DNA of 64,000 bases from Idiomarina zobellii. GTDB lineage: Bacteria > Pseudomonadota > Gammaproteobacteria > Enterobacterales > Alteromonadaceae. A program made the position numbers and the translations under genes. Positions 9,186 to 27,605 of the stretch are shown here, piece after piece (the first letter of the stretch is position 1; each line of letters opens with the position of its first letter). Location: NCBI RefSeq assembly GCF_900100855.1, contig NZ_FNCB01000001.1, positions 248,001 through 312,000 of the forward strand. The letters are read 5' to 3'. The notes under the pieces were generated by a model. The model made no database searches. It was not told the origin of the DNA and saw nothing but the letters and a program-made list of their open reading frames with translations.

Positions 9186-9196
9186 AGGACTTAGAA

Positions 9197-9223
9197 GACG
9201 ACTGAGCGCATTGCTCAGTCGTC
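9197..9223. terminator. Perfect 11-bp hairpin between convergent cysZ and rmuC
   Basis: GACGACTGAGC at 9197-9207 pairs perfectly with GCTCAGTCGTC at 9213-9223 around a 5-base loop. It begins 11 bases after the cysZ stop and covers the last codons of rmuC. There is no strong T run on either side, so it may be a terminator helped by Rho or an mRNA 3'-end stabiliser serving both genes. Confidence 0.5.
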
Positions 9224-12045: not shown

Positions 12046-12084
12046 GGCTCTACCTCTTCATTTTTATATCGAACGGTTCCGATA

Positions 12085-12112
12085 TTGGTTCTGATAAACG
12101 TGGCGCTATAAT
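12085..12112 (+). promoter_or_regulatory. Candidate promoter for pabB
   Basis: A perfect -10 hexamer TATAAT at 12107-12112 has TTGGTT 16 bases upstream, matching the -35 consensus only in TTG. It would give a leader of roughly 105 bases before pabB that includes the dyad at 12135-12163. The -10 sits in a small palindrome, so it might also serve the minus strand (fumarase). Confidence 0.35.
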
Positions 12113-12134
12113 AGCGTTTTCACTAACAACTGAC

Positions 12135-12163
12135 CAGTGTAACTAACCGAGTTAGTGTCACTG
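12135..12163. promoter_or_regulatory. 29-base interrupted dyad in the fum/pabB spacer
   Basis: CAGTG-TA-ACTAAC-CGA-GTTAGT-GT-CACTG: 11 of 14 symmetric base pairs match around the centre at 12149. It may be an operator for either divergent gene, or a hairpin in the pabB leader. I do not recognise the binding protein. Confidence 0.5.
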
Positions 12164-12223
12164 TGATAGAATGATTCTTATCCTTAATTCGTGGCTGTTA
12201 TTAAGTAAATCAAAGGGCTAAGT

Positions 12224-13606
12224 GTGAGCATTTTTCCTAACTTGTGTGCCGTAAAACTGGAAACCACCCTAACAGCGCTTGAGCTATTTGAGCTCTGCCA
12301 AAGCGAACCTTATGCACTTTTCCTTGACTCAGCCTCGACAACACACGAAGACGCTCATTATGACTTTATCTTCAGAGCGCCTGAATGCGTCATCCGAAGT
12401 AAAAACGAGCAACTCACTGTCTCCGCCAATAGCATAGCCCAACTCCCGAAAGTCCCAACTCACGCTGCCCAGATGTTCGATTACGCTGAGCAATTAATGG
12501 CGCTGACAGGCCATTATAACGGCCCCGAACACTTGCCTTTCCAGGGCGGTTTTGCCGGCGCAGTGGGGTACGATTTCGGCCGTTGCCTGGAAGTCATTCC
12601 TGAGTTTAACCGTGACGAATACAACTCCAGTGATGCAGTACTTGCGTACTATTGCGAAGCGGTTATTTTTGATAAAAAGCGCAACAAAGTTTGGCTGGTC
12701 GCTCCTGAACAGGCGCTTAAAACGCAGAAAGCTTATTGGGAGCAGTCACCGCAGTCAGACTCAAACACTCCTTTCAAGCTGGCCAGCGCCTGGCGAAGCA
12801 ATATGTCAGAGGCAGAGTACCATACTAAATTTAATGCGGTACAAGCCTACTTACTTAGCGGTGACGCCTATCAAATTAACTTAGCGCAACGTTATCAGGC
12901 GAGTTATCAAGGCTGTGAGTGGGCAGCTTATAAAAAGTTAAGGGCTTCTAATAACGCGCCGTTTTCAGCCTTCATGCGCACCCCTGAAAGCGCCATTCTC
13001 AGCGTTTCTCCTGAGCGCTTCCTAAGCACTACTGGTGCGGGAGAGGTGCAAACTAAGCCGATAAAAGGCACCCGCCCACGTTATGAAGACAGCAGCAGGG
13101 ATTCCGCCAGTAAACAGGCCTTGCTGAATTCAGAGAAAGATCGTGCCGAAAACCTGATGATTGTCGATTTACTGCGTAATGACCTCAGTAAAAACTGCGA
13201 GCCCGGTTCGGTAAAAACGCCGAAGCTGTTTGCCATAGAGAGCTTTCCGGCTGTGCATCATTTAGTATCAACCATTACCGGGCAATTAAAAATGGGCGGC
13301 TCTGCTTTACGTCTGTTTAAAGGAGCTTTCCCCGGTGGCTCGATTACCGGAGCTCCTAAAATTCGGGCTATGCAAATTATTGAAGAGCTCGAGCCGAATC
13401 GCCGCGGCATTTATTGCGGCAGCATAGGCTACTTCTCACAGAACGGCCAAAGCGACTCTAGTATTACCATTCGCACGTTATTAGCAGAAAACGGTCAGCT
13501 TTATTGCTGGGCCGGCGGAGGTCTGGTTGCCGACTCTAAAGCCGATGAGGAATACCAGGAAACCAAGGACAAAGTGTCTCGTATTTTGCCGGTGTTAACC
13601 TCATGA
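12224..13606 (+). CDS. pabB: Aminodeoxychorismate synthase component I (PabB)
   Basis: Converts chorismate and ammonia to 4-amino-4-deoxychorismate, the precursor of p-aminobenzoate for folate. The 460-residue product has the anthranilate-synthase component I fold. It carries PIKGTRPR with Lys281, the lysine diagnostic of PabB; the TrpE in this window (59976) has PIAGT at the same place. The other active-site motifs (DLLRNDLS, PGGSITGAPK, YCGSIGYF) are intact. Start is GTG with AAGGG about 7 bases upstream. No pabA is present here, so the glutaminase may be the TrpG at 61.6 kb or a pabA elsewhere. The stop overlaps the nudL start (ATGA). Confidence 0.95.
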   Translation: MSIFPNLCAVKLETTLTALELFELCQSEPYALFLDSASTTHEDAHYDFIFRAPECVIRSKNEQLTVSANSIAQLPKVPTHAAQMFDYAEQLMALTGHYNGPEHLPFQGGFAGAVGYDFGRCLEVIPEFNRDEYNSSDAVLAYYCEAVIFDKKRNKVWLVAPEQALKTQKAYWEQSPQSDSNTPFKLASAWRSNMSEAEYHTKFNAVQAYLLSGDAYQINLAQRYQASYQGCEWAAYKKLRASNNAPFSAFMRTPESAILSVSPERFLSTTGAGEVQTKPIKGTRPRYEDSSRDSASKQALLNSEKDRAENLMIVDLLRNDLSKNCEPGSVKTPKLFAIESFPAVHHLVSTITGQLKMGGSALRLFKGAFPGGSITGAPKIRAMQIIEELEPNRRGIYCGSIGYFSQNGQSDSSITIRTLLAENGQLYCWAGGGLVADSKADEEYQETKDKVSRILPVLTS

Positions 13607-14217
13607 CTATCAAAAACCGCGCCGAGTTTGTTCGACGTTTCAGCCTCACCCCATCGCCGTCAGTTGACCGAAAACTTGACGAGCCCTTGCGTAAACGCTT
13701 GCGACCAGCAGCAGTGCTTATTCCTATCATTGAGCGCCCGCATGGGCTGTCATTGATACTGACACGTCGTTCCGCTTCATTAAGAAAACATGCCGGACAA
13801 ATTAGCTTTCCCGGTGGTCGCTACGACAGAACCGACAATGACTTGCTGGATACGGCATTAAGAGAAACCGAGGAAGAAATTGGTTTGCCTCGGTCTCAGG
13901 TTGAAGTGATTGGTCGTCTACATGACTATCCGGTATTGTCTTACTTTATGATACGTCCTTATGTGGCCTTTGTGTCGCCTCAGCAGGAGCTTGTTGCCGA
14001 AGAGAGTGAAGTCGCCGAGATATTCGAAGTCCCTCTGGCGGACATTCTTGATCCGAGCAATCATTACGTTTACCGCATTCGCAAGTTCATTTATGACCGG
14101 GTTTATTTTATCCCCTGGCAACACCGCAATATCTGGGGAGCAACCGCAGGAATTTTGCGAGAATTGGCTGAGCAGCTTCAGCCAGAGCGGAAAAGTCACT
14201 TTAAGCCACTCAACTGA
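13603..14217 (+). CDS. nudL: CoA pyrophosphatase, Nudix family (NudL-like)
   Basis: Nudix hydrolase of the group that splits coenzyme A into 4'-phosphopantetheine and 3',5'-ADP. The 204-residue product shows the CoA-specific extension LRKHAGQISFPGG directly before the Nudix box, and the catalytic part of the box, RETEEEIGL. The usual Glu at the start of the box is Asp here (GGRYDRTD). It overlaps pabB by 4 bases (ATGA), so translation is probably coupled; the pabB-nudL (yeaB) pairing is also seen in enterobacteria. Substrate is inferred from the family motif only. Confidence 0.88.
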   Translation: MTIKNRAEFVRRFSLTPSPSVDRKLDEPLRKRLRPAAVLIPIIERPHGLSLILTRRSASLRKHAGQISFPGGRYDRTDNDLLDTALRETEEEIGLPRSQVEVIGRLHDYPVLSYFMIRPYVAFVSPQQELVAEESEVAEIFEVPLADILDPSNHYVYRIRKFIYDRVYFIPWQHRNIWGATAGILRELAEQLQPERKSHFKPLN

Positions 14218-14310
14218 CCAGTTATTTCGCTATAAAGCTTGCCAGCCCCCACACAATTCATGCGACAATACTATAATTAATAGTAACGAACGCGACAGGT
14301 AAGGATAAGT

Positions 14311-15684
14311 ATGATCAGCGTTTTTGATATTTACAAAATTGGTATCGGTCCTTCGAGTTCCCACACAGTGGGTCCTATGAAAGCGGCCTTCGATTTCCTG
14401 AAAGCCGCTAAAGAAGCTGGCCACTTAACTCAGGCAGACGGCGTTAAAGTTGAGTTGTTTGGCTCTTTAGGGCAAACCGGCAAAGGTCACGGCACCGGCA
14501 AAGCGGTTATTTTAGGTTTGGCGGGCGAATTACCGGAGACCGTAGACACCGACAACGTTGACAACTTCCTTGAACAGACTCGCAAAACCGAGAAACTGGC
14601 TTTATTAGGTGAGCACGAAGTCGCATTCCCGGCAGAAGGCGCTATTACATTCCATCGTCGTAAAACCATGCCAAAGCATGCCAACGCTATGGAGCTTAAG
14701 CTCCTAAAAGGCGACGATATTATCTATAGCGACCTATACTACTCTATTGGCGGCGGCTTTATTGTTCGTGACGAAGACTTTGATGAAACCTTAGAAGAAG
14801 CCATTGAACAGTCATCTAAACCTATTCCCTATCCGTTCGACAGTGCCGCTGAACTATTAGGTCATTGCAAGGAGCACGGACTGCGCATTAGCTCATTAAT
14901 GATGGCGAATGAAAAAGTGTTCCGTAGCGAAGATGAGATTCGCGAAGGCTTAATGAAAATTTGGCGCACCATGCAGCAAAGTATCACCAACGGTATTACC
15001 ACCGAAGGTATTTTACCCGGTGGCTTGAAAGTGCGTCGCAGAGCGTCTTCGTTGTATCAGCGGCTGAAAAAAGAAAAGTCGAGCGATGCCATGCAAGTTA
15101 TGGACTGGGTCGATTTATTCGCTTTGGCAGTAAACGAAGAAAACGCTGCGGGCGGTCGTATTGTCACCGCGCCAACTAACGGTGCAGCAGGTATCGTTCC
15201 GGCGGTCATGAGTTATGCCGATAAGTTCATTGAAACACTGGACGAAGACTCTGCGGTTCGCTTTCTACTAACGTCGGCCGCTATTGGCATCTTGTACAAG
15301 AAAAATGCCTCTATTTCCGGCGCTGAAGTCGGTTGTCAGGGTGAAGTGGGTGTTGCCTGCTCCATGGCCGCCGGCGCACTGGCTGAGTTCATGGGCGGAG
15401 GCCCTGAAACCGTTGAGAATGCTGCCGAAATTGGTATGGAGCACAACCTTGGCTTAACCTGTGACCCTGTCGGTGGCCTGGTTCAGGTTCCGTGTATTGA
15501 GCGTAATGCAATGGGCTCCGTCAAAGCCATTAACGCAGCCCGTCTGGCAATGCGTGGCAACGGCGACCATAAGGTGTCTCTGGATAAGGTCATTAAGACC
15601 ATGTGGGATACCGGTAACGATATGAAGACTAAATACAAAGAGACCGCCCGGGGCGGCTTAGCGGTTAATATTATCGAGTGCTGA
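14311..15684 (+). CDS. sdaA: L-serine ammonia-lyase (iron-sulfur, one chain)
   Basis: Deaminates L-serine to pyruvate and ammonia. At 457 residues it is the single-chain type in which beta ([19 protein letters not shown] near the N-terminus) and alpha domains are fused. The cluster cysteines are visible in [16 protein letters not shown] and [18 protein letters not shown]. The ATG follows TAAGGA by 6 bases. The gene stands alone after nudL, with a 93-base spacer that contains TATAAT at 14272-14277 but no good -35, so its promoter is unproven. Pyruvate made here could feed the oxaloacetate/malate genes elsewhere in the window (inference). Confidence 0.97.
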
Positions 15685-15692
15685 AAAACGAA

Positions 15693-16691
<999 letters not shown>

Positions 16692-16793
16692 TCAGTTTGC
16701 GAATTGTGATATAAAAAAATAGTATAATAATCTTATTAACTATGACAAATAGAAAAGCTGGTAGGTATAAGCAGCTGGAACCGGAATTCAACT

Positions 16794-17477
16794 ATGACAC
16801 AGCCCACATTCGACTTTTCTGCGATACTCGCCTCCTCTGCTCACGACATGAAAAATTCGCTTTGCTTGCTTATTCAGCTAATTGAAGAGGTTTCCGAGCA
16901 AGTACCACAAGGCAGTGCAACAGAAAACATGGCAAAAGTCCATTACGAGGCGCAACGAATTAACTCAGGGCTTATACAACTGCTGACCTTATACCGAGAC
17001 CAGCAGGGAGCGTTGCCGCTGAATGTTGACGAACATCATTGGGACGAGGTGCTTGAGGAACTGCTACTTAACAATGAAGTGTACCTTGAGCAACGTGGTA
17101 TCAGCGTAACAACCGATATCGACGAGTCAGCGGCGGGCTATTTTGACAAAGACCTCATTAGCCACTTACTGAACGACGTTATTATTAATGCTATGCGCTA
17201 TACCGCCGATAAACTCTTTATTACAGTGACAGTCGACGAGAATAAAGGGTGTCAGATTTCAGTGCACGATAATGGCGATGGTTTTCCGAACGACATGCTA
17301 AAACAAGCGCAAATGCCCATGCAGCAACTGGATATGAAAAAAGGCCGTACCGGTTTAGGGCTTTATTTTGCCCACCTAATCGCTGAAGCCCACCAAAGAA
17401 ACGATAAAAAAGGTTTTATCGAACTGAAAAATAATGGACACTTAGGTGGTGGTGTTTTTTCTCTGACATTACCTTAA
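16794..17477 (+). CDS. Soluble histidine kinase without a sensor domain
   Basis: The 227-residue product consists of a phosphoacceptor helix with His17 (SSAHDMKNSL) and a HATPase domain with N box (LNDVIINAMRY), G1 box (HDNGDGFP) and G2 box (GRTGLGLYFA). It has no membrane segment, PAS, GAF or other input domain, so it should be cytoplasmic and would need a partner to sense anything. No response regulator is fused or directly adjacent on the same strand, but receiver proteins lie 2-4 kb away at 18583 and 20659. That it phosphorylates one of them is my inference. It starts the run of plus-strand genes to 18.6 kb. Confidence 0.85.
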   Translation: MTQPTFDFSAILASSAHDMKNSLCLLIQLIEEVSEQVPQGSATENMAKVHYEAQRINSGLIQLLTLYRDQQGALPLNVDEHHWDEVLEELLLNNEVYLEQRGISVTTDIDESAAGYFDKDLISHLLNDVIINAMRYTADKLFITVTVDENKGCQISVHDNGDGFPNDMLKQAQMPMQQLDMKKGRTGLGLYFAHLIAEAHQRNDKKGFIELKNNGHLGGGVFSLTLP

Positions 17478-17504
17478 AAATAATAACAACCTAATGAGCG
17501 TTAT

Positions 17505-18263
17505 ATGATTTACACCATTGTTATAGCACTGATTATACTTTTGATAATACTGGCGATTGTCGTCGGTTCAGTGCAACAACATAAGCAGCGTCAGGAGCTT
17601 GAGCGACGCAAAAAACTTGCCCGATACAGAAGCGCTCTGGAGCAGATTGAAGACCTTATTCACATGTCCAGCTTCTTCCCTATTGGTAAGTCGATGTTGG
17701 CTGTCCTGAATATGCGTGCCTACGAAGTTCTGCAACAAATGTATGCCGTATCACCGACCAAAGACTTTCAGGCTCGTATTGAAGATTACAAAGAAAGAAT
17801 GGAAGGAGTTGATCCAAAAGACACTTCTCTAATTAGTGAAGAGTTTGAAATTCCACAGAACAACAAGCAAATTATTGCCATGATCAATGCGCTCAAGCGC
17901 TTGAAAGCGACCCTAAGAAGCGAGCACGCTCGTGGCCGCGTTGACAGTAATGTATTTAGTGTAGAAGACCAGCGTTTAAGCAAGTTACAGCTGAAAATTA
18001 GTATTGAAACGCTCATCCGTCGCGGTCGTCACGCCTATGAAAGCCATATGTTAGGGTCAGCGCGTCAATACTACGAGAAAGCGTTGCGCACTATCGAAGA
18101 GCAGAGCTTTTCTGACGATTACACAACGTCTCGTGAGGAGTCCATTAAAAAAGCTCTGGAACAAATTGCGCAAGAGCTGACCGACGCACATGCTCGTGAT
18201 CAAGCAAAGAACAAAAAAGAAGACGACCTGGAAGAACTCTTTCAACCGAAAAAGAAATGGTAG
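17505..18263 (+). CDS. Membrane-anchored cytoplasmic protein of unknown function
   Basis: I cannot name a family. The 252-residue product has one N-terminal membrane helix (rich in Ile/Leu/Val, residues 3-24) followed by a basic stretch, so the rest should face the cytoplasm. The body is mostly helical and charged. Residues 165-215 (RRGRHAYESHMLGSARQYYE) look like one or two TPR-type helical hairpins, and the C-terminus is very rich in Lys, Asp and Glu. It lies 27 bases after the histidine kinase gene and 3 bases before the yciH gene, so the three are likely one transcript. Confidence 0.8.
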   Translation: MIYTIVIALIILLIILAIVVGSVQQHKQRQELERRKKLARYRSALEQIEDLIHMSSFFPIGKSMLAVLNMRAYEVLQQMYAVSPTKDFQARIEDYKERMEGVDPKDTSLISEEFEIPQNNKQIIAMINALKRLKATLRSEHARGRVDSNVFSVEDQRLSKLQLKISIETLIRRGRHAYESHMLGSARQYYEKALRTIEEQSFSDDYTTSREESIKKALEQIAQELTDAHARDQAKNKKEDDLEELFQPKKKW

Positions 18264-18266
18264 TTT

Positions 18267-18602
18267 ATGTCTGACTGGAAAAATCAACTCAGCCAAATGG
18301 TGTATTCGACGGATTCAGGCCGCATTGAACCCGAGAAAGAGCCTGAGCAGATACCAGAAAGCGACGGCATTGTACGCCTTAGAAGAGAAACCAAAGGCCG
18401 AAAAGGAAAAGGCGTTACTATTGTCACTGGTCTGGCGCTGCCAAAAGACGAACTGAAGGCATTTGCGAAAAAGCTAAAACAACAATGTGGTGTGGGCGGC
18501 TCTGTCAAAGACTACGATATTGAACTTCAGGGTGACCAGCGAGACAGTATTGAAAACTATTTAAAAGTGCAAGGCTATAAGGTTAAACGCTCGGGAGGTT
18601 AA
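18267..18602 (+). CDS. yciH: YciH, SUI1/eIF1-like translation factor
   Basis: Bacterial homologue of eukaryotic initiation factor eIF1 (SUI1); in E. coli YciH can influence start-codon fidelity in vitro, but its in vivo role is not settled. The 111-residue product has a variable N-terminus and the SUI1 core: RRETKGRKGKGVTIVTGL, then KKLKQQCGVGGSVKD and a C-terminal IELQGDQRD motif. The usual length is about 108. It starts 3 bases after the upstream stop. Its last 20 bases overlap the convergent end of the receiver-phosphatase gene. Confidence 0.93.
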   Translation: MSDWKNQLSQMVYSTDSGRIEPEKEPEQIPESDGIVRLRRETKGRKGKGVTIVTGLALPKDELKAFAKKLKQQCGVGGSVKDYDIELQGDQRDSIENYLKVQGYKVKRSGG

Positions 18603-20253
18603 GGTCATACTCTATATATAGGCACTGCCCTTCGTCCTTCCACTCATAATAACGAGAGAAATTTTTAATCAACTGCATTCCGCGCCCGTGCATTTTTTCT
18701 TCATCCAGCACTGGCGAAAATTCGTCTGCCGGATAGCCATTCTCTCCGTTAGAGCGAATACCGAAACAAATCACACTATCAACAGGCTGGTAGTTAACAT
18801 CAATTGCTACTTCTATGTCTTCAAGACTTTTCAAGCGGCGCTCACGCTCAGAATAGTAACGCTCAAAGCCCTCGTCTTCTTCTTTTATGTCGGAGTTTAG
18901 ACGCAATAGATTATGCTCTAAAATGTTATTGAACGCTTCAGCTAACAACAAATAAAGCGTCGTTTTATGAGCTTTTATCCCTTCGAGGTGCGACAAAGAG
19001 TCCACTAGCCGAGTGACCGGATCTTCCCCTTTGATATTGTGTTCGGTTAAGCTCACTTTTAGTTCAAATGGCAGGTGGATTATTGAGTGATCATCCTGCT
19101 TTACCGGTAAACCGGTTGGCACGCAGTTCACAACGACTAATGAAATATCATCGCTTTGTTCTGTTCCCTGCTGAAAGCTTTCAAGAGAACTCACCAAGTC
19201 ATCGAACTGGTCTTGATGACCAAACTGCTTGAGCTTGTTTTCAAACCCACTTTCTTTCAGTCGGTTACCGTCAGTATTCGCCATTTCAATCACACCATCT
19301 GTGTATGCCACCAGCCGTTGTCCACGCTCGATAAAACAATGGCTCAGAGAGCTGTTAAACTCGTCGGGCGGTAAAATTCCCAGTGCGAGATGCTCAGACG
19401 GTAAGCGATTGGTTACTTCTCCGTTATTATCAATGAAAAGAGCGTCCGGAATGCCTCCGTTCCAATAGCTGAGGCGGTCGCCCCCTGCTGATAGCTCTGC
19501 GACAAATGCTGCACAAAACATGTCGTCAGGTAACAATTTTACCAGGCGCCGATTAAACTCTTTGACCATAGTCGCAACCGACAACCCTCTCTCAGCCAAA
19601 TCGAAAAACGTCTGCGCAACCGGCAGTGCTCCCGTTGCCGGCGCCAAGCCATGACCGGTAAAGTCACCGACAAAAATATAGTAGTTTCCTAAGGGGCCCC
19701 CTTTTGACAGGACCAAGTCACCATTAAATTCGGTTGCCGGCGATAAATAGGTTTGCAGAAAATCGAACCTCAGTTCATTTTCTAACAGTGCGTTGCTTAG
19801 CATGTGGCTCACCACATTTTGCTCACGCTCCATGCGGTTCGAGTGATAAGCCAGTACTTCATTCTTTTCTTTCAGCTTAAAGCTCAATTCTCGCACACGT
19901 GCGTGAGCATTTAGCTTAGCCTGTAAAACAATAGGCTCTGGCGGCGTACTGATAAAGTCATCGCCGCCCGCATCCAGGCATTCTAAAAGAGTTTTCTGAT
20001 CATCAAGTGCAGTAATAAACAGCACAGGAAGATGAATTTCACCACTTAACTGTTTTAAGTGTTTTGCGGTTGTAAGGCCGTCCATAACCGGCATCATGAC
20101 ATCAAGCAACACAATGTCAGCACCTTTGTGACTGAAAAGCTCCAGCGCTTGCATACCGTTTTCCGCGCAGCTCACATTGTGTCCAAAACGCTCAATAAGC
20201 CCCCTCAGCATTACCCGATTAGCGGCTTGGTCATCAACAATAAGTATGTGCAT
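18583..20253 (-). CDS. Receiver-PP2C phosphatase-HATPase partner-switch regulator (CrsR-like)
   Basis: Three signalling domains in 556 residues. Residues 1-120 form a receiver with phosphoacceptor Asp51 (VLLDVMMPVMDG) and acidic pair Asp7/Asp8; the conserved switch Lys is missing, with Thr at FISTPPEP. A short coiled linker leads to a SpoIIE-type PP2C phosphatase (GDFTGHG at 196-202, later AYTDGVIEMAN). Residues from about 415 form an anti-sigma-type HATPase with N box LLLAEAFNNILEHN and GRGM motif; its G1 box is unusual (RSNGENG). This order matches CrsR of Shewanella, where the phosphatase acts on the STAS protein CrsA and the ATPase-like domain restrains RpoS; HsbR of Pseudomonas is related. 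The STAS partner is the upstream gene, coupled by TAATG. The RpoS link is inference. Confidence 0.88.
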   Translation of the reverse strand: MHILIVDDQAANRVMLRGLIERFGHNVSCAENGMQALELFSHKGADIVLLDVMMPVMDGLTTAKHLKQLSGEIHLPVLFITALDDQKTLLECLDAGGDDFISTPPEPIVLQAKLNAHARVRELSFKLKEKNEVLAYHSNRMEREQNVVSHMLSNALLENELRFDFLQTYLSPATEFNGDLVLSKGGPLGNYYIFVGDFTGHGLAPATGALPVAQTFFDLAERGLSVATMVKEFNRRLVKLLPDDMFCAAFVAELSAGGDRLSYWNGGIPDALFIDNNGEVTNRLPSEHLALGILPPDEFNSSLSHCFIERGQRLVAYTDGVIEMANTDGNRLKESGFENKLKQFGHQDQFDDLVSSLESFQQGTEQSDDISLVVVNCVPTGLPVKQDDHSIIHLPFELKVSLTEHNIKGEDPVTRLVDSLSHLEGIKAHKTTLYLLLAEAFNNILEHNLLRLNSDIKEEDEGFERYYSERERRLKSLEDIEVAIDVNYQPVDSVICFGIRSNGENGYPADEFSPVLDEEKMHGRGMQLIKNFSRYYEWKDEGQCLYIEYDLNLPSV

Positions 20254-20558
20254 TAAGCAATAGTAAACATCTTATCGAAACGAGAAATATCAAGAATACG
20301 ACGAACATCCGGCTTGGCGTTAATAAGCTGAATGTCTTTAACACTGCTGCCTAAAGACTTACGCATATTCAACAACATACCCAGCGCTGAACTGTCCAGG
20401 TATTCGGTTTCTCTCAAGTCAATGATCACCGTTGGCTGAGAGTCGCCAATATGGCTATAAGCCTGACGAAATTCTTGTACCAAACTGAAATCAAACTTAC
20501 CCTGAATGGCAATAATCAGTTGTTTGCCATCATTTGAAAACTCACGACTAACGCTCAT
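20253..20558 (-). CDS. STAS-domain anti-sigma factor antagonist (CrsA-like)
   Basis: The 101-residue single STAS domain is of the SpoIIAA/RsbV type. The phosphorylatable serine lies in EYLDSSALGML (Ser56/Ser57), after the buried strand TVIIDLRE. Its stop codon shares a base with the start of the receiver-phosphatase-ATPase gene (TAATG), so the two are translated together and should form the partner switch: the ATPase domain phosphorylates the serine or binds the unphosphorylated form, and the PP2C domain removes the phosphate. The start has an AGGGGTA stretch upstream. In Shewanella the homologous protein CrsA frees RpoS; that this one does so is inferred from domain order. Confidence 0.9.
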   Translation of the reverse strand: MSVSREFSNDGKQLIIAIQGKFDFSLVQEFRQAYSHIGDSQPTVIIDLRETEYLDSSALGMLLNMRKSLGSSVKDIQLINAKPDVRRILDISRFDKMFTIA

Positions 20559-20599
20559 AGGTACCCCTTTTTTTCATGAGCCTAACACAATTTTATGAT

Positions 20600-20646
20600 T
20601 GAGTTTATTGCCTGAATACCCTAATCTTTGCTACATCATAAACTCA
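20600..20646. promoter_or_regulatory. Inverted repeat and candidate promoter between STAS and double-receiver genes
   Basis: TGAGTTTAT (20600-20608) and ATAAACTCA (20638-20646) are perfect 9-bp inverted arms 29 bases apart in the 100-base divergent spacer. Within them, TTGCCT (20608-20613), 17 bases and CTACAT (20631-20636) could be a promoter for the plus-strand gene. The -10 begins like the CTA-type hexamers favoured by RpoS, but the match is partial. Confidence 0.35.
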
Positions 20647-20658
20647 TTTTGACCGATT

Positions 20659-21456
20659 ATGGCGATAGCCTTCGACGAACTCCGAATTTTGCTCATCGAG
20701 CCTTCCGATGTGCAGCGTAAAGTCATTACCCAACACCTCAATCAGGCAGGTATCCAACATACCCGAGGCTCTTCTACTATAGCGGAAGCAAAAGAAGAAA
20801 TCCTGCGTTGGCAGCCTGATATCGTAACGAGCGCCATGTATTTTGAAGATGGTACGGCGCATGAACTTATTCAATTCATCAACCGAAACGATCTTCACGA
20901 CACCTTACATTTTATGTTGGTATCGTCTGAACACCGAGCCGACCAGCTCGAACAGTTTAAGCAAGCCGGTATTATTGCTATTTTACCGAAACCTTTTACT
21001 CCGGAGCAATTACAGCGCGCTATTACGGCGACTATGGACTTAATGGAGCCGGAATTACTCCACCTAGAGCTGTATGACATAGAAGACTTACGGGTGCTTA
21101 TTGTTGATGACAGCCTGACTTCGCGTCATGTATTACGTCGCGTGTTTGAAAACCTGGGCGTTGAAATATTTGTTGAAGCCGAAAACGGTCAACAAGCCAT
21201 TGATATATTAGAAGAACATCAGTTCGATTTAATTGTCACCGATTTCAATATGCCGGAAATGAATGGTCGTGAATTAACACAATATATTCGCAACAGTTCA
21301 GCACATGCACACACTCCTGTACTGATGGTGACAGCGCGCGCCAATGAGCCACAACTGGCAAACGTAAAACAAAGCGGCGTCGATGCTCTGACCGACAAAC
21401 CCTTTGAGCCGGCAGCCATACGCGGCTTAATCTCACGTTTACTTGACCAACAGTAA
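20659..21456 (+). CDS. Double-receiver protein with a degenerate first receiver
   Basis: The 265-residue protein has two receiver folds and no output domain. The second (from about residue 144) has all key residues: Asp150/Asp151, phosphoacceptor Asp195 in IVTDFNMPEMNG, a Thr switch (MVTARA) and Lys in TDKPFEP. The first (residues 8-128) keeps the Lys (LPKPFTP) but has Ser/Ala where the Asp belongs (DIVTSAMYFEDG) and Glu-Pro instead of the acidic pair, so it cannot be phosphorylated in the normal way. Such pseudo-receivers often bind partners. It is divergent from the STAS/phosphatase pair, which suggests a shared pathway. There is no clear ribosome binding site, so the ATG rests on the domain start. 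Confidence 0.85.
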   Translation: MAIAFDELRILLIEPSDVQRKVITQHLNQAGIQHTRGSSTIAEAKEEILRWQPDIVTSAMYFEDGTAHELIQFINRNDLHDTLHFMLVSSEHRADQLEQFKQAGIIAILPKPFTPEQLQRAITATMDLMEPELLHLELYDIEDLRVLIVDDSLTSRHVLRRVFENLGVEIFVEAENGQQAIDILEEHQFDLIVTDFNMPEMNGRELTQYIRNSSAHAHTPVLMVTARANEPQLANVKQSGVDALTDKPFEPAAIRGLISRLLDQQ

Positions 21457-21467
21457 CCCATAAAAAG

Positions 21468-21506
21468 AAGGCCCCTGACGCTTTATCACGCCAGGGGCCT
21501 TTTTCT
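21468..21506. terminator. Bidirectional Rho-independent terminator
   Basis: AAGGCCCCTG (21468-21477) pairs with CAGGGGCCTT (21492-21501). The stem is flanked by an A run on the left and by TTTTTCT on the right, so it works in both directions. It lies exactly between the convergent double-receiver gene and the amidohydrolase gene. Confidence 0.9.
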
Positions 21507-21525
21507 ATTTAGCCGTTAACTCATT

Positions 21526-22827
21526 TTAATTAGCCGGCTTTTCCTGATACTTGTTGTAAAGCTCAGTGTGACGGCTTTCTAAGCTCACATTGCGACCATC
21601 AATAAACATGTGCGTTAGGCTCTGTCCAATAGGGTCCAGCAAGTCCCCTTCTGAAACTATCAAGGAAGCGCTCTTGCCAACATCAAGCGAACCGAGCTTG
21701 TCTGAAACGCCCATAAACTTGGCTGGCTGAAGCGTAATAGCTTCCAGTGCTTTTTGCTGATCCAAGCCAAAGGCAACCGAGTGTCCGGCCGCGAAAGGCA
21801 GGTTCCGAACATCCCAGTAACCTGGGTAGGAGATAGCAAAGTTAACACCGGCATCCGCCAATTTAGCTGGCGTAGAAAAGTCTTGATCATAACCTTCGTC
21901 GTCACGGCCCGGTAACCCGAACGGTGAACCGAAAACAACCGGAACCTCAAGTTCAGCCAGTTTATCAGCAATGCGCCAGGCGTCTCTTGCCCCCATAAGT
22001 ACCAACTTAAAGCCATACTCACGACTCACATCAATGGCTTGCTCCATTTGGCGTTTGTCGTTGGCGTGCACATACAGAGTTTTGCTACCGTCAAACAGCC
22101 CGAGCATTGCTTCCCAGCGCTGATCCATATCGATGTCTCTGTCTGCTTTTTTCGCATCAAAGTAGGCTTTCGCATCAGCAAACACCTTCATCAACTCTTT
22201 ACGAGCCTCTTCATTAGCCTTGCGTTGCTCTTCAGGAGAACGGCGCTCCCACCATGTGTTGATAACATAGGTTCTCGGCCAGCTCACATGCACACCCATT
22301 TCACCAGAAACCAGTGCGTCTTGATAATTCCAGCCATCAAGGTGCATGAGCGACGACTGCCCCATGACCAATGAGCCTTCCGGAACCACTTGCGCATGGG
22401 TAATGCCGTTATAGCGTACCGTAGGAATAACTTCTGAGTCCGCATTAAAAGCGATGTGCCCAGCCACTTCCGGGTGTACCGGACCCACTTCGCGTGCGTC
22501 TCGCGTCGCTCGCACCGCTTCAATTTCGTTCAAACCCAAAGTGGTGTCCATCGCGATAACACCCGGATAAACATGCTTACCGGACACGTCTATGACTTGC
22601 GCGTTACCAGGAACCTCAAGATCTTTTCCAATGGCTGTAATCTTGCCGTCTTCAAAAACCAAATCAGAGTCGGTTAAAACGCCGTTAGTCACCGTGTGCA
22701 AAGTACCACCCTGCAAAACTATAGGTTGTTGCTGTGCATCGCCAGGCACTTCGTCATGAGCAACGGCGGTCGATACGGTCACTGCACCAATCAGCGCAGC
22801 ACTCAATGTGGATAGTAAAGTCTTCAT
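21526..22827 (-). CDS. Exported amidohydrolase-like protein, metal site missing
   Basis: The 433-residue product has a signal peptide (MKTLLSTLSAALIGAVTVSTAVA) and the composite fold of the amidohydrolase superfamily: the N-terminal beta-sandwich GGTLHTVTNGVLTDSDLVFE, the barrel, and a C-terminal LGSLDVGKSASLIV strand pair. The first-strand HxH metal motif after VYPGVI is replaced by AMDTT, so the normal catalytic site is absent. It starts on the stop codon of the larger amidohydrolase gene upstream (TAATG), which suggests a 1:1 pair in the periplasm, with this one a structural or regulatory subunit. Substrate is unknown; related pairs in marine bacteria are annotated only as amidohydrolases. 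Confidence 0.85.
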   Translation of the reverse strand: MKTLLSTLSAALIGAVTVSTAVAHDEVPGDAQQQPIVLQGGTLHTVTNGVLTDSDLVFEDGKITAIGKDLEVPGNAQVIDVSGKHVYPGVIAMDTTLGLNEIEAVRATRDAREVGPVHPEVAGHIAFNADSEVIPTVRYNGITHAQVVPEGSLVMGQSSLMHLDGWNYQDALVSGEMGVHVSWPRTYVINTWWERRSPEEQRKANEEARKELMKVFADAKAYFDAKKADRDIDMDQRWEAMLGLFDGSKTLYVHANDKRQMEQAIDVSREYGFKLVLMGARDAWRIADKLAELEVPVVFGSPFGLPGRDDEGYDQDFSTPAKLADAGVNFAISYPGYWDVRNLPFAAGHSVAFGLDQQKALEAITLQPAKFMGVSDKLGSLDVGKSASLIVSEGDLLDPIGQSLTHMFIDGRNVSLESRHTELYNKYQEKPAN

Positions 22828-25800
22828 TAGTGTTGTCCTCCATGCTGATGCGCTTGCGTAGTGAAGTGATCCAGCCAGAAGTCATGCTCGGTATCACAGT
22901 GCCAGGTCGGCTGTGCGTCTTTATAACCGTCGGTGTCGCCTTTCAGAGCTTCATCACCGGCTGCTAAGACTTTCTGAATGAGAGCATTCTTCTCTTGTTT
23001 TACCGCTTGCTGACGCTGTTTATCTTGTTCGCGGTCAAAGAACTTACGACCATTAATCCAGGTCTGCTCTGCTCGCGCGTAAGCGCTTAACGGATAGTGA
23101 CTCCAAAGCACAAAGTCAGCATGTTTGCCCTCTTCAATTGACCCAACGTACTTATCAACTTTTAATTGTTTAGCAGGGTTAATAGTGACCATTTTGAACG
23201 CTTCATGTGGGTCCATACCACAATAGCGAACCGACTTAGCCGCTTCGGTATTCAGACGACGCTGCAAGTCATTACTGTCCGAGTTAATGCTGGTTAATAC
23301 ACCTCTGTCATGCATTAAGCACGCGTTTTGAGGTATTGCGTCATACACTTCGAATTTGTATGCCCACCAGTCAGCGAACGTTGACCCGCTGGCACCGTGC
23401 TCCGCCATTTCGTCTGCGACTTTGTAACCTTCCAGAATATGAGTGAAAGTATCCAGCGTGAAACCATAATCTTCAGCCACTTCCATCAGCATAAGAATTT
23501 CAGACGCGACATACGAGTGCGCATGAACAAAGCGCTCGCTGTTTAGAATTTCGATTAACGTCTCTAAACGATAGTCTGGTCTTGGTGGTGCAATCCGGTT
23601 CTTCTCAGAACGACTCATGCGGTCATACGCTTGTTTACGCTGCTGGTATTCCAACGCCGCCTGAAAGCCGTCACGAACAATGGTTTCAACGCCTAAGCGA
23701 GTCTGAGGGTAACGAACGGTCATGTTGTCGCCCCAGTTACTTTGCTTCACGTTTTCACCTAATGCGAACTTGATAGACTCAGGTGCCGCATCAAACTTCA
23801 TAATATTAGCATCAGTCCCCCAGCGCAGTTTAATAACCTGCGCCTGGCCGCCAACCGGGTTAGCAGAGCCGTGCAGCAGCTGAGCCATTGTCGTACCACC
23901 CGCTAATGAGCGATAAATATGAATATCGTCCGGGTTTACAACGTCACCAATACGAACTTCTGAGGTGATGGCTTCAGAGCCTTCGTTCACACCACCATCA
24001 ATTGCGATGTGTGAGTGTTCATCGATAATGCCCGGTGTTAAATGCATACCCGCTGCATCAATAACCATTGCGCCTGACGGTGCGCTTAAGTTTTTACCGA
24101 CTTCGGCAAATTCGCCATCTCTAACTAATACGTCGGTTTCTTCAAGAATACCGTCATCGCTGGCAGTCCAGACCGTCGCGTTACGAATTAGCACATCTTG
24201 TCGCTCCGGCAGGCCATCTAGACCATAGGCAACGTTCGGGAACGTAAGCTGGCTGACATAGTCAACCTGATTGTTGCTATCGCTCTGAGCTTCTTCACTC
24301 GTTTCATTAGCGTCGCTAACTTCAGCTGTCAGAGCTTGTGACTCACCTTCTGGAGAAACCGTTTCCAGTGTGAAGTTTTGTTGAGACGCAGGAGTCAGTT
24401 TAAAGCGCCATGTGCCCGCTGGCTGGACATCCATATCGGCCACAAAAGACAGGGTATCTTCCGTACGCTCTACATTACGAAGAGACTGAGTGTTATCACC
24501 AAGCGTCAGTTCGCCGCTTAACTTAGCGCCCGGCTTCAAAGTGAGCGCCACACTCTGACCATTCCAGTCAATGGTGTAGTTACCAGCAAAGTCCACCAAT
24601 TCTCGAGAAACCAGCTCGTTCTCTTCACCTTGTAACCAAACTGACTGTATTTCACCGTCTTCAAAAATATCGCCTTTCACCATGACAAAGTCGGCCATAT
24701 AGCCACTGGCTAAGCGTCCCACTTTGTCATCAACACCGGCAATTTTAGCGGCGGTTGTCGTTAATGCAGCAAGCGCTTTCTCTTTACTTAAACCGTGCTT
24801 TACGGCTTTACGCAGGTTTGGCCAGAAGTCGCCTGACTTCTCAAGCTCATTCAGGGTCAAGGCAAAATCAACGCCGGCATTCGCTAACATAGCCGGATTT
24901 GACGGAGCGCGCTCCCAATGGCGTAACTTAGCTAAATCAACATCAAGATGGGCATCAACACCACTGACATTAGGCGCTGCCGGGAAATTAAGAGGTAAAA
25001 TTAAATCACTTCCCGTATTTTTTATTGAGTTCAGACGAGCGTACTCATAACCCGAGCCAACATACACACTTGGTACGTTAAACTGATCCAACACGTCATC
25101 GGCACGTAGCAAGGTTTTCTCATCAGAAACCTTGAACACGATGCCTTCAGATTCAATATTTTTAAGTGAATCCAACGCAGCATTAAACTCCGCCGGCTGA
25201 TTATGTGACTGCTTACCGTAAGCATTTTCGTACCAGTTCGCGTCAGACAGGGTTTGTCTGACCAAAGCGATGCTACCCATCAAGGACGACGGGTACTGCT
25301 GCTGCGAGGTTCCTTTGTCAAAAGAGCCAAAGTGTTTGGACTCGCTGCGATAAATAACATCGTTGGCAATTTTATCGGCCAGCGAAACTGTCGCTGCCTG
25401 CCCCTGAAAAATACCGTCTAGCTTAGCCGTCTGAACGCTGGTAAAACCTTCAGAAACCCACTTTTTGGCATCGTCAGAGTTGGTTTTAAAGACACTGTAC
25501 CAGTCTTTTTCAGCGTGAATGGCGTCATTTGCCGCGTTTCCACCTTCACGTTCATTGTTATAAATAGGCTTGTCGGTATCGGCTTTCTCGTAAGTCACGT
25601 CAATACCATAGCTGGCATAAGGGTCGATAAAGCCCGGGTAAATGGTGTAGCCGGTGCCATCGATAACGCGTGCCCCTGCCGGTGCGCGGTTACCGCTTTC
25701 AACGCTTTTTACTTTACCATTTTCAATAACCAGCGTTGCGTTGGTGACGACTTCGCCAGGCTCGGTCACAACCGCGGCATTTTGAATGGCGGTTAAGCTG

Positions 25801-25913
25801 GGCGTGTTGTCCCGCATACCATTCGTTCGAGAGGTTTGATCAGCGCTCGTCGGTAACGCCAGCACGGAGGTAACCGCTAACGCTGCCGCACTGAGCTTAT
25901 GCATTGTCTTCAT
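22827..25913 (-). CDS. Exported two-domain amidohydrolase
   Basis: The 1028-residue product has a signal peptide and two amidohydrolase-type halves. The N-terminal half (about residues 30-450) ends in a second beta-sandwich (RLASGYMADFVMVKGD) but lacks the HxH motif (FIDPYASYG), so it is probably not catalytic. The C-terminal half (about 570-1000) has the metal ligands: HxH in IIDEHSHIAID, later His in HAHSYVAS and THILEG, and the Asp in SINSDSND. About 120 residues of beta-rich linker lie between. I choose the ATG at 25913, with GGGGA 8 bases upstream, over a GTG at 25928. It is likely an imidase or peptidase-type hydrolase, but the substrate cannot be told from sequence. Confidence 0.88.
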   Translation of the reverse strand: MKTMHKLSAAALAVTSVLALPTSADQTSRTNGMRDNTPSLTAIQNAAVVTEPGEVVTNATLVIENGKVKSVESGNRAPAGARVIDGTGYTIYPGFIDPYASYGIDVTYEKADTDKPIYNNEREGGNAANDAIHAEKDWYSVFKTNSDDAKKWVSEGFTSVQTAKLDGIFQGQAATVSLADKIANDVIYRSESKHFGSFDKGTSQQQYPSSLMGSIALVRQTLSDANWYENAYGKQSHNQPAEFNAALDSLKNIESEGIVFKVSDEKTLLRADDVLDQFNVPSVYVGSGYEYARLNSIKNTGSDLILPLNFPAAPNVSGVDAHLDVDLAKLRHWERAPSNPAMLANAGVDFALTLNELEKSGDFWPNLRKAVKHGLSKEKALAALTTTAAKIAGVDDKVGRLASGYMADFVMVKGDIFEDGEIQSVWLQGEENELVSRELVDFAGNYTIDWNGQSVALTLKPGAKLSGELTLGDNTQSLRNVERTEDTLSFVADMDVQPAGTWRFKLTPASQQNFTLETVSPEGESQALTAEVSDANETSEEAQSDSNNQVDYVSQLTFPNVAYGLDGLPERQDVLIRNATVWTASDDGILEETDVLVRDGEFAEVGKNLSAPSGAMVIDAAGMHLTPGIIDEHSHIAIDGGVNEGSEAITSEVRIGDVVNPDDIHIYRSLAGGTTMAQLLHGSANPVGGQAQVIKLRWGTDANIMKFDAAPESIKFALGENVKQSNWGDNMTVRYPQTRLGVETIVRDGFQAALEYQQRKQAYDRMSRSEKNRIAPPRPDYRLETLIEILNSERFVHAHSYVASEILMLMEVAEDYGFTLDTFTHILEGYKVADEMAEHGASGSTFADWWAYKFEVYDAIPQNACLMHDRGVLTSINSDSNDLQRRLNTEAAKSVRYCGMDPHEAFKMVTINPAKQLKVDKYVGSIEEGKHADFVLWSHYPLSAYARAEQTWINGRKFFDREQDKQRQQAVKQEKNALIQKVLAAGDEALKGDTDGYKDAQPTWHCDTEHDFWLDHFTTQAHQHGGQH

Positions 25914-26052
25914 GAATGTGTTCCCCACTATAATGAGCTTTTCTTTTATTATTTCGTATACAAGTTAAAGCGTTTATCATGCCAGAAACAAGCACTAACC
26001 GATAAATCGTGTATTATTAACGGTAAGTGCACGATAAAAAGGAGAATATCCA

Positions 26053-26517
26053 ATGAAAAAATCACTATCCGTACTTTTTACAGCGGTTGCTTTAGGTTTA
26101 TCGACAAGTGCCGTAGCAGACGAGAATGCGTTTAACGACGGCGACAAAGCTGTTGAGTACCGTCAAAAGGCGCTGTCGGTGATGCAACAAAACTTTGCTG
26201 CTATGGCAGAAATGGTTAAAGGCGAAGTGGACTATGACGCGCAGGTTTTTGCAAACCGTGCAAATGATTTTGAGAAACTAGCTGGCATCCCCTGGAGTGG
26301 TTTCGCTGTCGAAGGTGCTATGCCCGGCGATAACAGCGATGCATTAACCGCAATTTGGGACAACTGGGAAGACTTTCAAGAGCGTTCAAATGACTTACAA
26401 CAATACGCTTCAAAGCTTGCCAGCGCCGCAGAGTCGGGTTCAATGGATAACATTAAACCCGTATTTATGGACACAGCGCAAACCTGCAAAGGTTGTCATG
26501 ACGAATACAAAGACTAA
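26053..26517 (+). CDS. Cytochrome c'
   Basis: Periplasmic four-helix haem protein. The 154-residue precursor has a signal peptide (cleavage near AVA-DE) and the single haem-binding CKGCH at the C-terminus, the arrangement typical of class II cytochromes c. Family members bind NO and related gases or scavenge radicals; the electron partner is often unknown. The ATG has AGGAGA 8 bases before it. It is convergent with, and 2 bases from, a cytochrome b561 gene. Cytochrome c' and b561 genes are often neighbours, and b561 could reduce it (inference). Confidence 0.94.
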   Translation: MKKSLSVLFTAVALGLSTSAVADENAFNDGDKAVEYRQKALSVMQQNFAAMAEMVKGEVDYDAQVFANRANDFEKLAGIPWSGFAVEGAMPGDNSDALTAIWDNWEDFQERSNDLQQYASKLASAAESGSMDNIKPVFMDTAQTCKGCHDEYKD

Positions 26518-26519
26518 TT

Positions 26520-27164
26520 TTAAAGCAGTAACATAAACAGCAGCCACACAGCTATCGCCAGCAGCAAACCTTGCCACCCGGGCTTTAATTGCGGGGCCGG
26601 TTGTGTGGTCTTTTTGTATCCATGAACCATGGCACCTATTAGCTTCACCCCTTTCAGACGATACATAAGCACAGCAACTATGTGCAGCCCAATAACAATT
26701 AAAATCGCATCAAACTGAGTTTTGTGCCAGTCAGTCAGGAGCTCTTGTGCGTCAGAAGAAACCCAGCTTGCCAATGGTCCCGAAAATAAAATTCCGTCAC
26801 TAGAAAACAAGCCTGTCACCGCCTGAGCAACTAACAAACCCAGCATGATAATTACTGCCCATCCGCCGGCTGCGCTGTGCGTTGTTTCCGACTGATACTG
26901 GCCGCTAAAAAGCTTTTTCAAATGTGAGGGAATTTGCAAAGGAGAGCGAACGAATGTTTTAAAACGTGCGTTACTACTACCAAAGACACCCCAGGCAATA
27001 CGCATGACTAACAGTGATAAAATGGCGATACCAAAGTCTTTGTGCAAATCCATACGGCCGTTATCGGCTGTCCACCACAAGCCGGCAACTAACAGAATAA
27101 TCAGTAAATGGAAAAGACGTACAAAACTGTCCCAGACTTTTACAGGATTTTCTTTCTGAATCAT
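26520..27164 (-). CDS. Cytochrome b561 family membrane protein
   Basis: The 214-residue protein has about five hydrophobic segments and histidines placed as haem b ligands: RLFHLLIILL in helix 1, DLHKDFGI before helix 2, and DWHKTQFDAILIVIGLHIVA in the later pair. This is the Ni/Fe-hydrogenase cytochrome b / b561-type fold, which passes electrons between the quinone pool and periplasmic acceptors. Here the likely acceptor is the cytochrome c' encoded convergently 2 bases away. No terminator is visible between the two genes. Confidence 0.9.
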   Translation of the reverse strand: MIQKENPVKVWDSFVRLFHLLIILLVAGLWWTADNGRMDLHKDFGIAILSLLVMRIAWGVFGSSNARFKTFVRSPLQIPSHLKKLFSGQYQSETTHSAAGGWAVIIMLGLLVAQAVTGLFSSDGILFSGPLASWVSSDAQELLTDWHKTQFDAILIVIGLHIVAVLMYRLKGVKLIGAMVHGYKKTTQPAPQLKPGWQGLLLAIAVWLLFMLLL

Positions 27165-27242
27165 CGTGTTAACTCCAAAACACTAGGAAAAACCGGTACC
27201 AGGTGCTAGGGTATAGTTAATTCAATGAAAAAGGTAGTAGGC

Positions 27243-27605
27243 ATGACGAAAGTTTTAATTGCTGACGATGACTTTATCAGTCTGGAAGTTTTAAAAGCGA
27301 TGCTCGGCCAATACGACGTCGAGATTCTTACCGCTACAACCGGCCAGGAAGCGCTGGCTCAAGCCAAAGAAATGCCTAACCTTATTTTCCTCGATTACGA
27401 AATGCCTGATATGTCTGGTGCTGAGGTTTGTAAAACACTGCGCGGCAAACCAGAATTTGAAAATACGCCGATTATTGCGATTACTAGCCACCAAAGCGCC
27501 AGTGAAATGACGGCCTGCAGAGAGGCCGGCATGGATGCCACGCTACATAAGCCGGTATCACCTGAGGCTTTAGAAGAGCTTTTTAAAGAGTACGTGAAGT
27601 CTTAA
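27243..27605 (+). CDS. Single-domain response regulator
   Basis: The 120-residue protein is just a receiver (CheY-like) domain. It has the acidic triad (IADDDF), phosphoacceptor Asp in IFLDYEMPDMSG, Thr switch (AITSHQ) and Lys in LHKPVSP, so it should be phosphorylatable. There is no output domain, so it acts by binding a partner or by passing phosphate on. The ATG at 27243 follows AAGG/TAGG and starts at the first receiver strand; an in-frame ATG at 27225 would add six residues. The cognate kinase is not adjacent; the hybrid kinase at 37.7 kb, with an HPt domain, is one candidate. The end overlaps convergent tyrA by 4 bases. Confidence 0.9.
   Translation: MTKVLIADDDFISLEVLKAMLGQYDVEILTATTGQEALAQAKEMPNLIFLDYEMPDMSGAEVCKTLRGKPEFENTPIIAITSHQSASEMTACREAGMDATLHKPVSPEALEELFKEYVKS

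Follow-up and report, generated by a model that had tools for sequence, protein, structure and literature searches.

We analyzed a 64,000-nucleotide window of the 2.58-Mb genome of Idiomarina zobellii (248001-312000 of contig NZ_FNCB01000001.1) and found that two coupled minus-strand genes in it probably form a partner switch of the CrsR/HsbR type, in which a GHKL anti-sigma/kinase domain would act on a sigma factor, most likely RpoS, and whose receiver input appears altered in Idiomarina. We put the probability of this reading at about 0.62. One gene (18583..20253) encodes a CrsR/HsbR-like receiver-PP2C-GHKL protein of 556 amino acids (aa), and the other (20253..20558) encodes a STAS anti-sigma-factor antagonist of 101 aa that resembles CrsA and HsbA. 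Domain order, conserved catalytic residues, gene coupling and the presence of RpoS in the genome could all be observed directly. An earlier sequence-only reading of this DNA had described a receiver-PP2C-HATPase protein, a STAS gene coupled to it through TAATG, a double-receiver gene divergent from both and a gene for a sensorless kinase. All of these were found again by Pfam domains and open reading frame coordinates, so that its observation is confirmed; its interpretation, a switch with a changed input step and two extra parts, is partly supported.

In the CrsR-like protein, Pfam identified the receiver (Response_reg, residues 3-114, E 3.9e-24) and the phosphatase (SpoIIE/PP2C, residues 189-376, 2.3e-34); the C-terminal ATPase domain received no Pfam call and matched HATPase_c_2 only at E 0.004 in the genome search. 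An AlphaFold model of this last domain, with a predicted local distance difference test score (pLDDT) of 87.7 and a predicted template modelling score (pTM) of 0.83, retrieved LvrC of Leptospira first in Foldseek, followed by SpoIIAB complexes with sigma factor or antagonist (1th8, 1l0o). When its sequence profile was compared with PDB sequences, LvrC/SenB (9qih, 2.2e-7) was the sole match below 0.001, and RsbW reached 0.52. The full-length model had a pLDDT of 86.9 and a pTM of 0.52, which leaves the arrangement of the domains unsure. Its nearest structures for the receiver-linker-PP2C part were those of Pseudomonas aeruginosa RssB (3f7a, 3eq2), with Escherichia coli RssB also found, and the RsbU-RsbW protein Rv1364c (3ke6) stood at rank 7. 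The Pfam calls together with the AlphaFold and Foldseek results bear out the domain order of CrsR and HsbR, that is, receiver, PP2C and GHKL in one chain, which had been claimed earlier.

All four parts of the protein lie on the minus strand. The receiver (aa 1-118; 19900..20253) keeps D7, D8, D51 and T81 and has Thr103 in place of the switch Lys (codon 19945-19947). A helical linker (aa 119-165; 19759..19899) is continuous with the last receiver helix, the model predicting a helix over residues 107-158. In the SpoIIE-type PP2C phosphatase (aa 166-380; 19114..19758), Asp 179, 197, 319, 368 and 369, which we take to be the metal ligands, are invariant. The GHKL domain (aa 394-556; 18586..19074) keeps E439, N443 and H447 of the N box and GRG523-525 of G2, and its G1 Asp, which in this fold binds adenine, is replaced (IRSNGENGY, 18733-18759). 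The STAS protein matched Pfam STAS (9e-14) and TIGR00377 ant_ant_sig (2.9e-15, above cut-off) and carries the motif DSSALG, whose first Ser is presumably the phosphorylated residue, as in SpoIIAA. The Ser at the DSS position is kept in the STAS gene adjoining the CrsR-like gene; among 57 aligned STAS proteins (the window plus 56 loci from L050-L107, named loci not being included) the motif was DSSALG in 52, DSAGLG in four and DSAALG in one. The start of the CrsR-like gene overlaps the STAS stop (TAATG in the window), and the same overlap (gap -1) was seen in 16 of the 18 Idiomarina loci showing both genes. RpoS was identified in all 19 Idiomarina genomes and in all 10 related genomes examined (eight Pseudidiomarina/Aliidiomarina and two Catenovulum-like).

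To describe the altered sites, 129 CrsR-type proteins were aligned (18 Idiomarina, seven Pseudidiomarina, one Aliidiomarina and 103 others), leaving out one Idiomarina protein whose N terminus is cut off by the contig end (L067) and nine loci judged to duplicate genomes already included. At position 103, the 18 Idiomarina rows have T (5), V (7), I (5) or M (1) instead of the switch Lys. This Lys is also gone in all seven Pseudidiomarina proteins and in eight of the 103 others (R 4, W 2, I 1, M 1), and it is kept in the single Aliidiomarina protein. The window protein does not have the full receiver phospho-switch (D, D, D, T, K), Lys alone being replaced; since members linked to Che1 chemosensory genes also lack Lys, a complete phospho-switch is not a strict criterion for the CrsR/HsbR type. 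The G1 box reads DSGxGF in most relatives versus SNGENGY in the window protein. Its Asp is gone in 18 of 18 Idiomarina rows (S 16, E 1, N 1), in four of seven Pseudidiomarina (N in each) and in six of the 103 others (H 4, all from order family f21; N 2). In addition, the N-box Gly448 is missing in 16 of the 18 Idiomarina proteins and in none of 111 other proteins. The truncated L067 protein has I at position 103 and has likewise lost the G1 Asp. Both losses noted in the sequence-only reading, Thr in FISTPPEP and the degenerate G1 box, therefore extend over all 19 Idiomarina genomes; being genus-wide, they are not due to sequencing error, and a one-off mutation was ruled out on the same ground. 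As judged from these alignments, the losses are real, in a protein that keeps its remaining catalytic residues, and have been either tolerated or selected; the loss of the switch Lys throughout Idiomarina supports the idea of an altered input step. Some further changes were observed outside Idiomarina. In four f21 proteins (L079, L081, L083, L089) the G1 box has become EHNGxGF and the STAS neighbours carry DSAGLG, both partners being changed. Six proteins forming one tree cluster (L091, L092, L094, L096, L098, L099) have R, W or M for the switch Lys, and one of them (L098) has Asn at the receiver acceptor site.

The rest of the catalytic core was strictly conserved: all 129 proteins have the PP2C Asp residues, E439/N443/H447 and GRG. 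Mean pairwise identities of receiver, PP2C and GHKL were 70.1, 62.1 and 53.5% in 18 Idiomarina proteins, 70.2, 68.2 and 59.6% in 14 Pseudoalteromonas proteins and 61.7, 47.9 and 39.3% in 13 Alteromonas-like proteins. The Idiomarina receiver is thus better conserved than its own PP2C domain (70.1 vs 62.1%), and GHKL lies below PP2C by almost the same margin in the three groups (-8.6, -8.6 and -8.7 points, respectively). The reading of the degenerate G1 box as a sign of a decaying GHKL domain was ruled out by this absence of excess divergence and by the invariance of the other ATP-site residues. An altered G1 box alone would not imply a dead ATPase, given an invariant N box and G2 and a rate of evolution that is not unusually high for the domain.

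A broader form of decay, in which receiver and kinase pocket are both being lost and the module retains little function in Idiomarinaceae, appears very unlikely. It could appeal to the seven of seven Pseudidiomarina receivers lacking both acceptor Asp and Lys, and to I. xiamenensis (L066), whose receiver has lost the acidic pair. However, in those close Idiomarina pairs for which dS could be obtained, the ratio of nonsynonymous to synonymous substitution rates (dN/dS) ranged from 0 to 0.11 in each domain of the CrsR-like protein; for the receiver it was 0.017-0.064 in the 10 of 13 close pairs with a usable dS. Saturation left many comparisons without a ratio, and some of the dS values used exceeded 2 and are rough. 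Moreover, the STAS protein is 76-98% identical to that of the window across Idiomarina, and no internal stop was found in the 19 Idiomarina CrsR-like genes. By these measures the Idiomarina protein shows no sign of decay.

A more serious alternative is that GHKL is a pseudokinase, which binds sigma factor and STAS protein without phosphorylating the latter, control being exerted by protein docking; PP2C would then act on phosphate supplied by another kinase or be vestigial. The G1 Asp loss in 19 of 19 Idiomarina and four of seven Pseudidiomarina and the nearly genus-wide Gly448 loss are in its favor, yet the invariant E439, N443, H447, GRG and PP2C Asp residues and the ordinary rate of GHKL divergence are not what it would lead one to expect. 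The G1 Asp is also replaced in the four f21 proteins, L071 and L255. Furthermore, no stand-alone RsbW-sized kinase could be found among the 11 HATPase_c_2 matches in the genome, all of which lie in frames of at least 342 aa. We consider a pseudokinase possible, but clearly less probable than a switch that still uses ATP.

For the CrsR/HsbR-type switch favored here, the mechanism may be outlined as follows. In Shewanella, the GHKL domain of CrsR holds RpoS and phosphorylates the STAS protein, PP2C reverses this, and free STAS protein displaces RpoS (PMC6482189). If the same logic applies, the Idiomarina GHKL domain would hold the sigma factor, most likely RpoS, and phosphorylate the STAS protein on the DSS serine; PP2C would take this phosphate off, and unphosphorylated STAS protein would then occupy GHKL and free the sigma factor. 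The direction of the switch could differ, because HsbR binds the phosphorylated form of HsbA (PMC6482189). A PP2C phosphatase of this kind is described as being activated by ordering of a coiled-coil linker in the dimer (PMC12143880). Since the receiver is strongly conserved in Idiomarina, it may, with an acceptor Asp and no switch Lys, still set the state of PP2C through the helical linker, either by altered phosphorylation kinetics or by docking of a partner, for which the pseudo-receiver/receiver protein encoded at 20659 would be the best candidate. We infer the RpoS target, the direction of switching and the continued use of ATP by GHKL from these comparisons.

As for the source of phosphate, four proteins with histidine phosphotransfer (Hpt) domains are possible donors to the CrsR-like receiver. 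One is a 729-aa frame beside a FliA-sized sigma factor, the one CheA-sized Hpt frame in the genome and probably the flagellar CheA; another is an 892-aa frame inside the window. The remaining two are a 116-aa Hpt, similar to that of ArcB, beside an ArcA-type regulator (NCBIfam ArcA, above cut-off), and a 118-aa Hpt-like protein beside a putative FapA gene. These last two lie elsewhere in the genome, at L189:5202-7342 and 8454-11238, where the ArcB-like Hpt is a protein of its own and a gene for a sensor kinase accompanies that of the ArcA-type regulator. The genome has one SpoIIE-type PP2C and three STAS matches, namely that of the window and those in a 556-aa and a 103-aa frame, which by their lengths we guess to be SulP- and MlaB-like.

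The target itself need not be RpoS. In P. aeruginosa, HsbA binds FlgM and the diguanylate cyclase HsbD (PMC6482189), and a FliA-sized sigma match (253-261 aa frame) was present in 19 of 19 Idiomarina genomes. However, both CrsR and HsbR GHKL domains interact with RpoS in two-hybrid assays (PMC6482189). No FliA-sized match was found by cross-matches of the RpoS model in four of the 10 related genomes (Pseudidiomarina G317-G320). RpoS is favored over FliA/FlgM because these four keep the pair and RpoS in the absence of such a match. A target other than RpoS seems rather unlikely, and the pair would most likely be a working partner switch on RpoS.

The related genera provide a natural comparison. 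Seven Pseudidiomarina loci and one Aliidiomarina locus retain synteny from fum to tyrA and still contain the pair and yciH. In the Aliidiomarina protein the receiver has changed in part (S8, A81), with D51 and Lys kept. In all seven Pseudidiomarina (L247, L260, L263, L268, L270, L271, L284), an N terminus of receiver length has lost both acceptor Asp and Lys, and over its first 130 residues the CrsR-like protein can hardly be aligned, whereas PP2C and the STAS gene persist. The Pseudidiomarina receiver thus appears eroded while pair and RpoS remain, which suggests a rewired input on a kept core rather than loss. The genes for the double receiver, the sensorless kinase and its neighbour orf252 had no match in these eight loci, to which the absence of orf252 refers. 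In the eight whole genomes, the double receiver gave partial matches only, mostly in other, larger frames (best E 3.8e-20 to 7.4e-12), compared with 6.3e-87 or better for true orthologues in the same search, except L215 (1.5e-81); for the kinase, three genomes had weak matches, lying in frames of about 1,130 aa, and five had none. Idiomarina, Pseudidiomarina and Aliidiomarina form a natural series: the input domain is near-canonical at one end, then Lys-less, then eroded, and the output core is kept throughout. With such a series one could ask what the receiver adds to a switch of this kind and how evolution swaps one input for another. A tentative scenario, which we hold to be doubtful as a whole, is that a phosphorelay-driven sigma-factor partner switch is converting to a docking-driven one in Idiomarinaceae: Lys would have been lost in the Idiomarina/Pseudidiomarina stem, the adaptor encoded at 20659 would feed the receiver in Idiomarina, and adaptor loss in Pseudidiomarina would have let the receiver erode while phosphatase, STAS protein and sigma-binding domain were kept.

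The double-receiver gene (20659..21456, plus strand; 265 aa, two Response_reg stretches by Pfam) is divergent from the pair. Its first receiver has EP instead of the acidic pair and lacks the acceptor Asp (SAMYFxDGT; Ala59); the second is canonical (D195, K247). Among 54 aligned rows (47 distinct over the last 150 aa), S58 and D195 were present in 54 and A59 in 52. All 17 fetched Idiomarina loci whose contig extends to that side have the gene next to the pair, as do all seven loci L069-L075. Of 18 named Alteromonas-like loci, 17 show the same neighbourhood (the contig of L235 ends before the gene), and so do both Catenovulum-like loci; a few named loci come from genomes already counted among the other relatives. 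In named Pseudoalteromonas loci it lies 6.5-9.5 kb from the pair in eight of 21, and it was not seen in the fetched stretch of the other 13, some of whose contigs are short. Gene order differs among the groups: in Idiomarina the pair lies between yciH (18267..18602, plus strand; a SUI1-family translation factor, NF006536 above cut-off) and the double receiver, in Alteromonas-like genomes yciH lies between pair and double receiver, and no yciH was seen in the Catenovulum-like loci. In eight loci (L109, L110, L118, L126, L201-L204), yciH and the double receiver are adjacent in a fetched stretch that lacks a full-length CrsR-like gene; yciH is linked to the double-receiver gene in Idiomarinaceae. 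A TerB-family gene was also observed close downstream of the CrsR-like gene in two Alteromonas-like genomes (L070:5617-6072, L073:4648-5094).

In raw counts over 295 genomes of the order, uncorrected for phylogeny or genome size, 36 have both a CrsR-type protein and the double receiver, 25 a CrsR-type protein only and 37 the double receiver only. The CrsR-type list was set by hand (61 genomes with long matches; it includes the partial G127 and leaves out G111 and G013, the match of the latter being truncated at the end of a contig). The suggestion that double receiver and sensorless kinase are extra parts of the module holds in part for the former, which is linked to the pair across several genera in three gene orders; it is not obligatory, because 37 of the 295 genomes carry the double receiver but no CrsR-type protein, and searches of the eight Pseudidiomarina/Aliidiomarina genomes with the pair did not find it. 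Whether both neighbours always travel with the pair had been raised as a check; they do not, neither being found in those eight genomes, and the same searches and the co-occurrence counts ruled them out as constant companions.

The sensorless histidine kinase (16794..17477, plus strand; Pfam HATPase_c) belongs to another pair. For loci outside the genus, we examined the 29 top-scoring of 90 matches, with flanks of 1.5 kb each. In all 29, which come from several families, the kinase is followed by orf252 (17505..18263, plus strand in the window); 23 of them also have cysB beside the kinase, and the flanks contain neither a CrsR-like nor a STAS gene. orf252 itself has no match in Pfam, NCBIfam or PHROGs. 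Hence the kinase was excluded from the module, and orf252 is its partner rather than a part of the switch. That it nevertheless phosphorylates the double receiver or the CrsR-like receiver is improbable, although its end is 1.1 kb from the CrsR-like/STAS pair, 17 of 18 fetched Idiomarina relatives likewise have it near the pair, it is found in 19 of 26 genera with CrsR-type genes, and neither it nor the double receiver was found in the eight Pseudidiomarina/Aliidiomarina genomes. Besides its constant association with orf252, it occurs without a CrsR-type protein in 45 of the 295 genomes, and Idiomarina synteny spans unrelated genes, so nearness to the pair carries little information. In one closely related genome (G301; L050:1-6000), whose CrsR-like protein is 93% identical, other genes including a DnaB-type helicase replace orf252 and the kinase beyond yciH, perhaps as an inserted element.

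The gene order is cysB(-), kinase(+), orf252(+), yciH(+), CrsR-like(-), STAS(-), double receiver(+) and two amidohydrolase-family genes(-). Between 18400 and 21600 there was no excess of promoter-like sites (5 vs 5.3 in shuffles), and 5 terminator-like sites were found versus 3.5 in shuffles; the single strong terminator (14 pairs; 21468-21501, listed on the minus strand) separates the double-receiver and amidohydrolase genes.

It should be noted that several points weigh against the proposed RpoS switch with altered input. The G1 Asp loss in all Idiomarina examined, together with that of Gly448, may mean that kinase activity is reduced or gone, and the genome HATPase_c_2 matches include no replacement kinase. 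The double receiver was not found in any of the eight Pseudidiomarina/Aliidiomarina genomes with the pair and occurs without a CrsR-type protein in 37 of 295 genomes. The FliA argument relies on a search with an RpoS model, and orthology to Shewanella CrsR was judged via Che1-linked stand-ins only.

To place the pair among known systems, a tree of the PP2C+GHKL region was built by a quick method with midpoint rooting, its deep forks having support of 81-86 only. Idiomarinaceae (99) stand beside Pseudoalteromonas (99), Alteromonas-like (99) and Catenovulum-like (99) clades, joined at 86, and the Pseudomonas HsbR-type clade (100) and the cluster with Che1-linked L091 and L100 fall in another part of the tree (81). 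Idiomarina is not a single clade, as I. xiamenensis groups with Pseudidiomarina (95). Six of the eight Lys-less proteins from other genera form one cluster, which includes L091, and L100 is in the sister cluster. In both L091 and L100 the pair is flanked by genes for a methyl-accepting chemotaxis protein and CheR. Those flanking L091, encoding a chemotaxis receptor with globin and PAS domains, CheR, CheD and CheB, resemble the che1 locus described for Shewanella (PMC9855816). Shewanella CrsR was accordingly placed by synteny of this stand-in cluster, not by its own sequence. A Pfam scan that shows chemosensory genes in L091 and L100 found none among the 17 proteins of window positions 10522-28744. 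In the titles and abstract openings surveyed, including those on degenerate G1 boxes, no work on an Idiomarina or Alteromonas CrsR-type switch was found, and the word Idiomarina does not occur in the main text of PMC12143880.

Like CrsR-CrsA of S. oneidensis (PMC6482189, PMC9855816), the Idiomarina pair combines a receiver-PP2C-GHKL protein with a STAS antagonist in a genome with RpoS. Unlike it, the pair has no chemotaxis genes nearby and belongs to a different clade from the Che1-linked stand-ins. It has lost both the switch Lys and the G1 Asp, Lys being lost also in the cluster with Che1-linked L091. HsbR-HsbA of Pseudomonas shares the domain order and the STAS neighbour; nine named Pseudomonas proteins, presumably HsbR, are 33-35% identical, but they keep the switch Lys and DSGxGF, and Idiomarinaceae form a separate clade. 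RssB of the P. aeruginosa RssB-RssC system provides the nearest solved structures for receiver, linker and PP2C, whereas its solved chains (366-378 aa) have no C-terminal GHKL domain such as the Idiomarina protein possesses. In a single chain, Rv1364c of Mycobacterium tuberculosis joins PP2C to an RsbW-type domain on its C-terminal side; this protein presumably differs by another sensor input and a fused STAS domain. CrsR-type homologues are said to be widespread (PMC6482189), and the two RpoS partner switches described in PMC6482189 and PMC9855816 receive their inputs from Che1 in Shewanella and HptB in Pseudomonas. We conclude that the switches of Idiomarinaceae, Alteromonas-like genera, Pseudoalteromonas and Catenovulum would constitute, by clade and gene neighbourhood, a third genomic class of the CrsR type, which may already stand in the 2018 review of such switches (Bouillet et al.).

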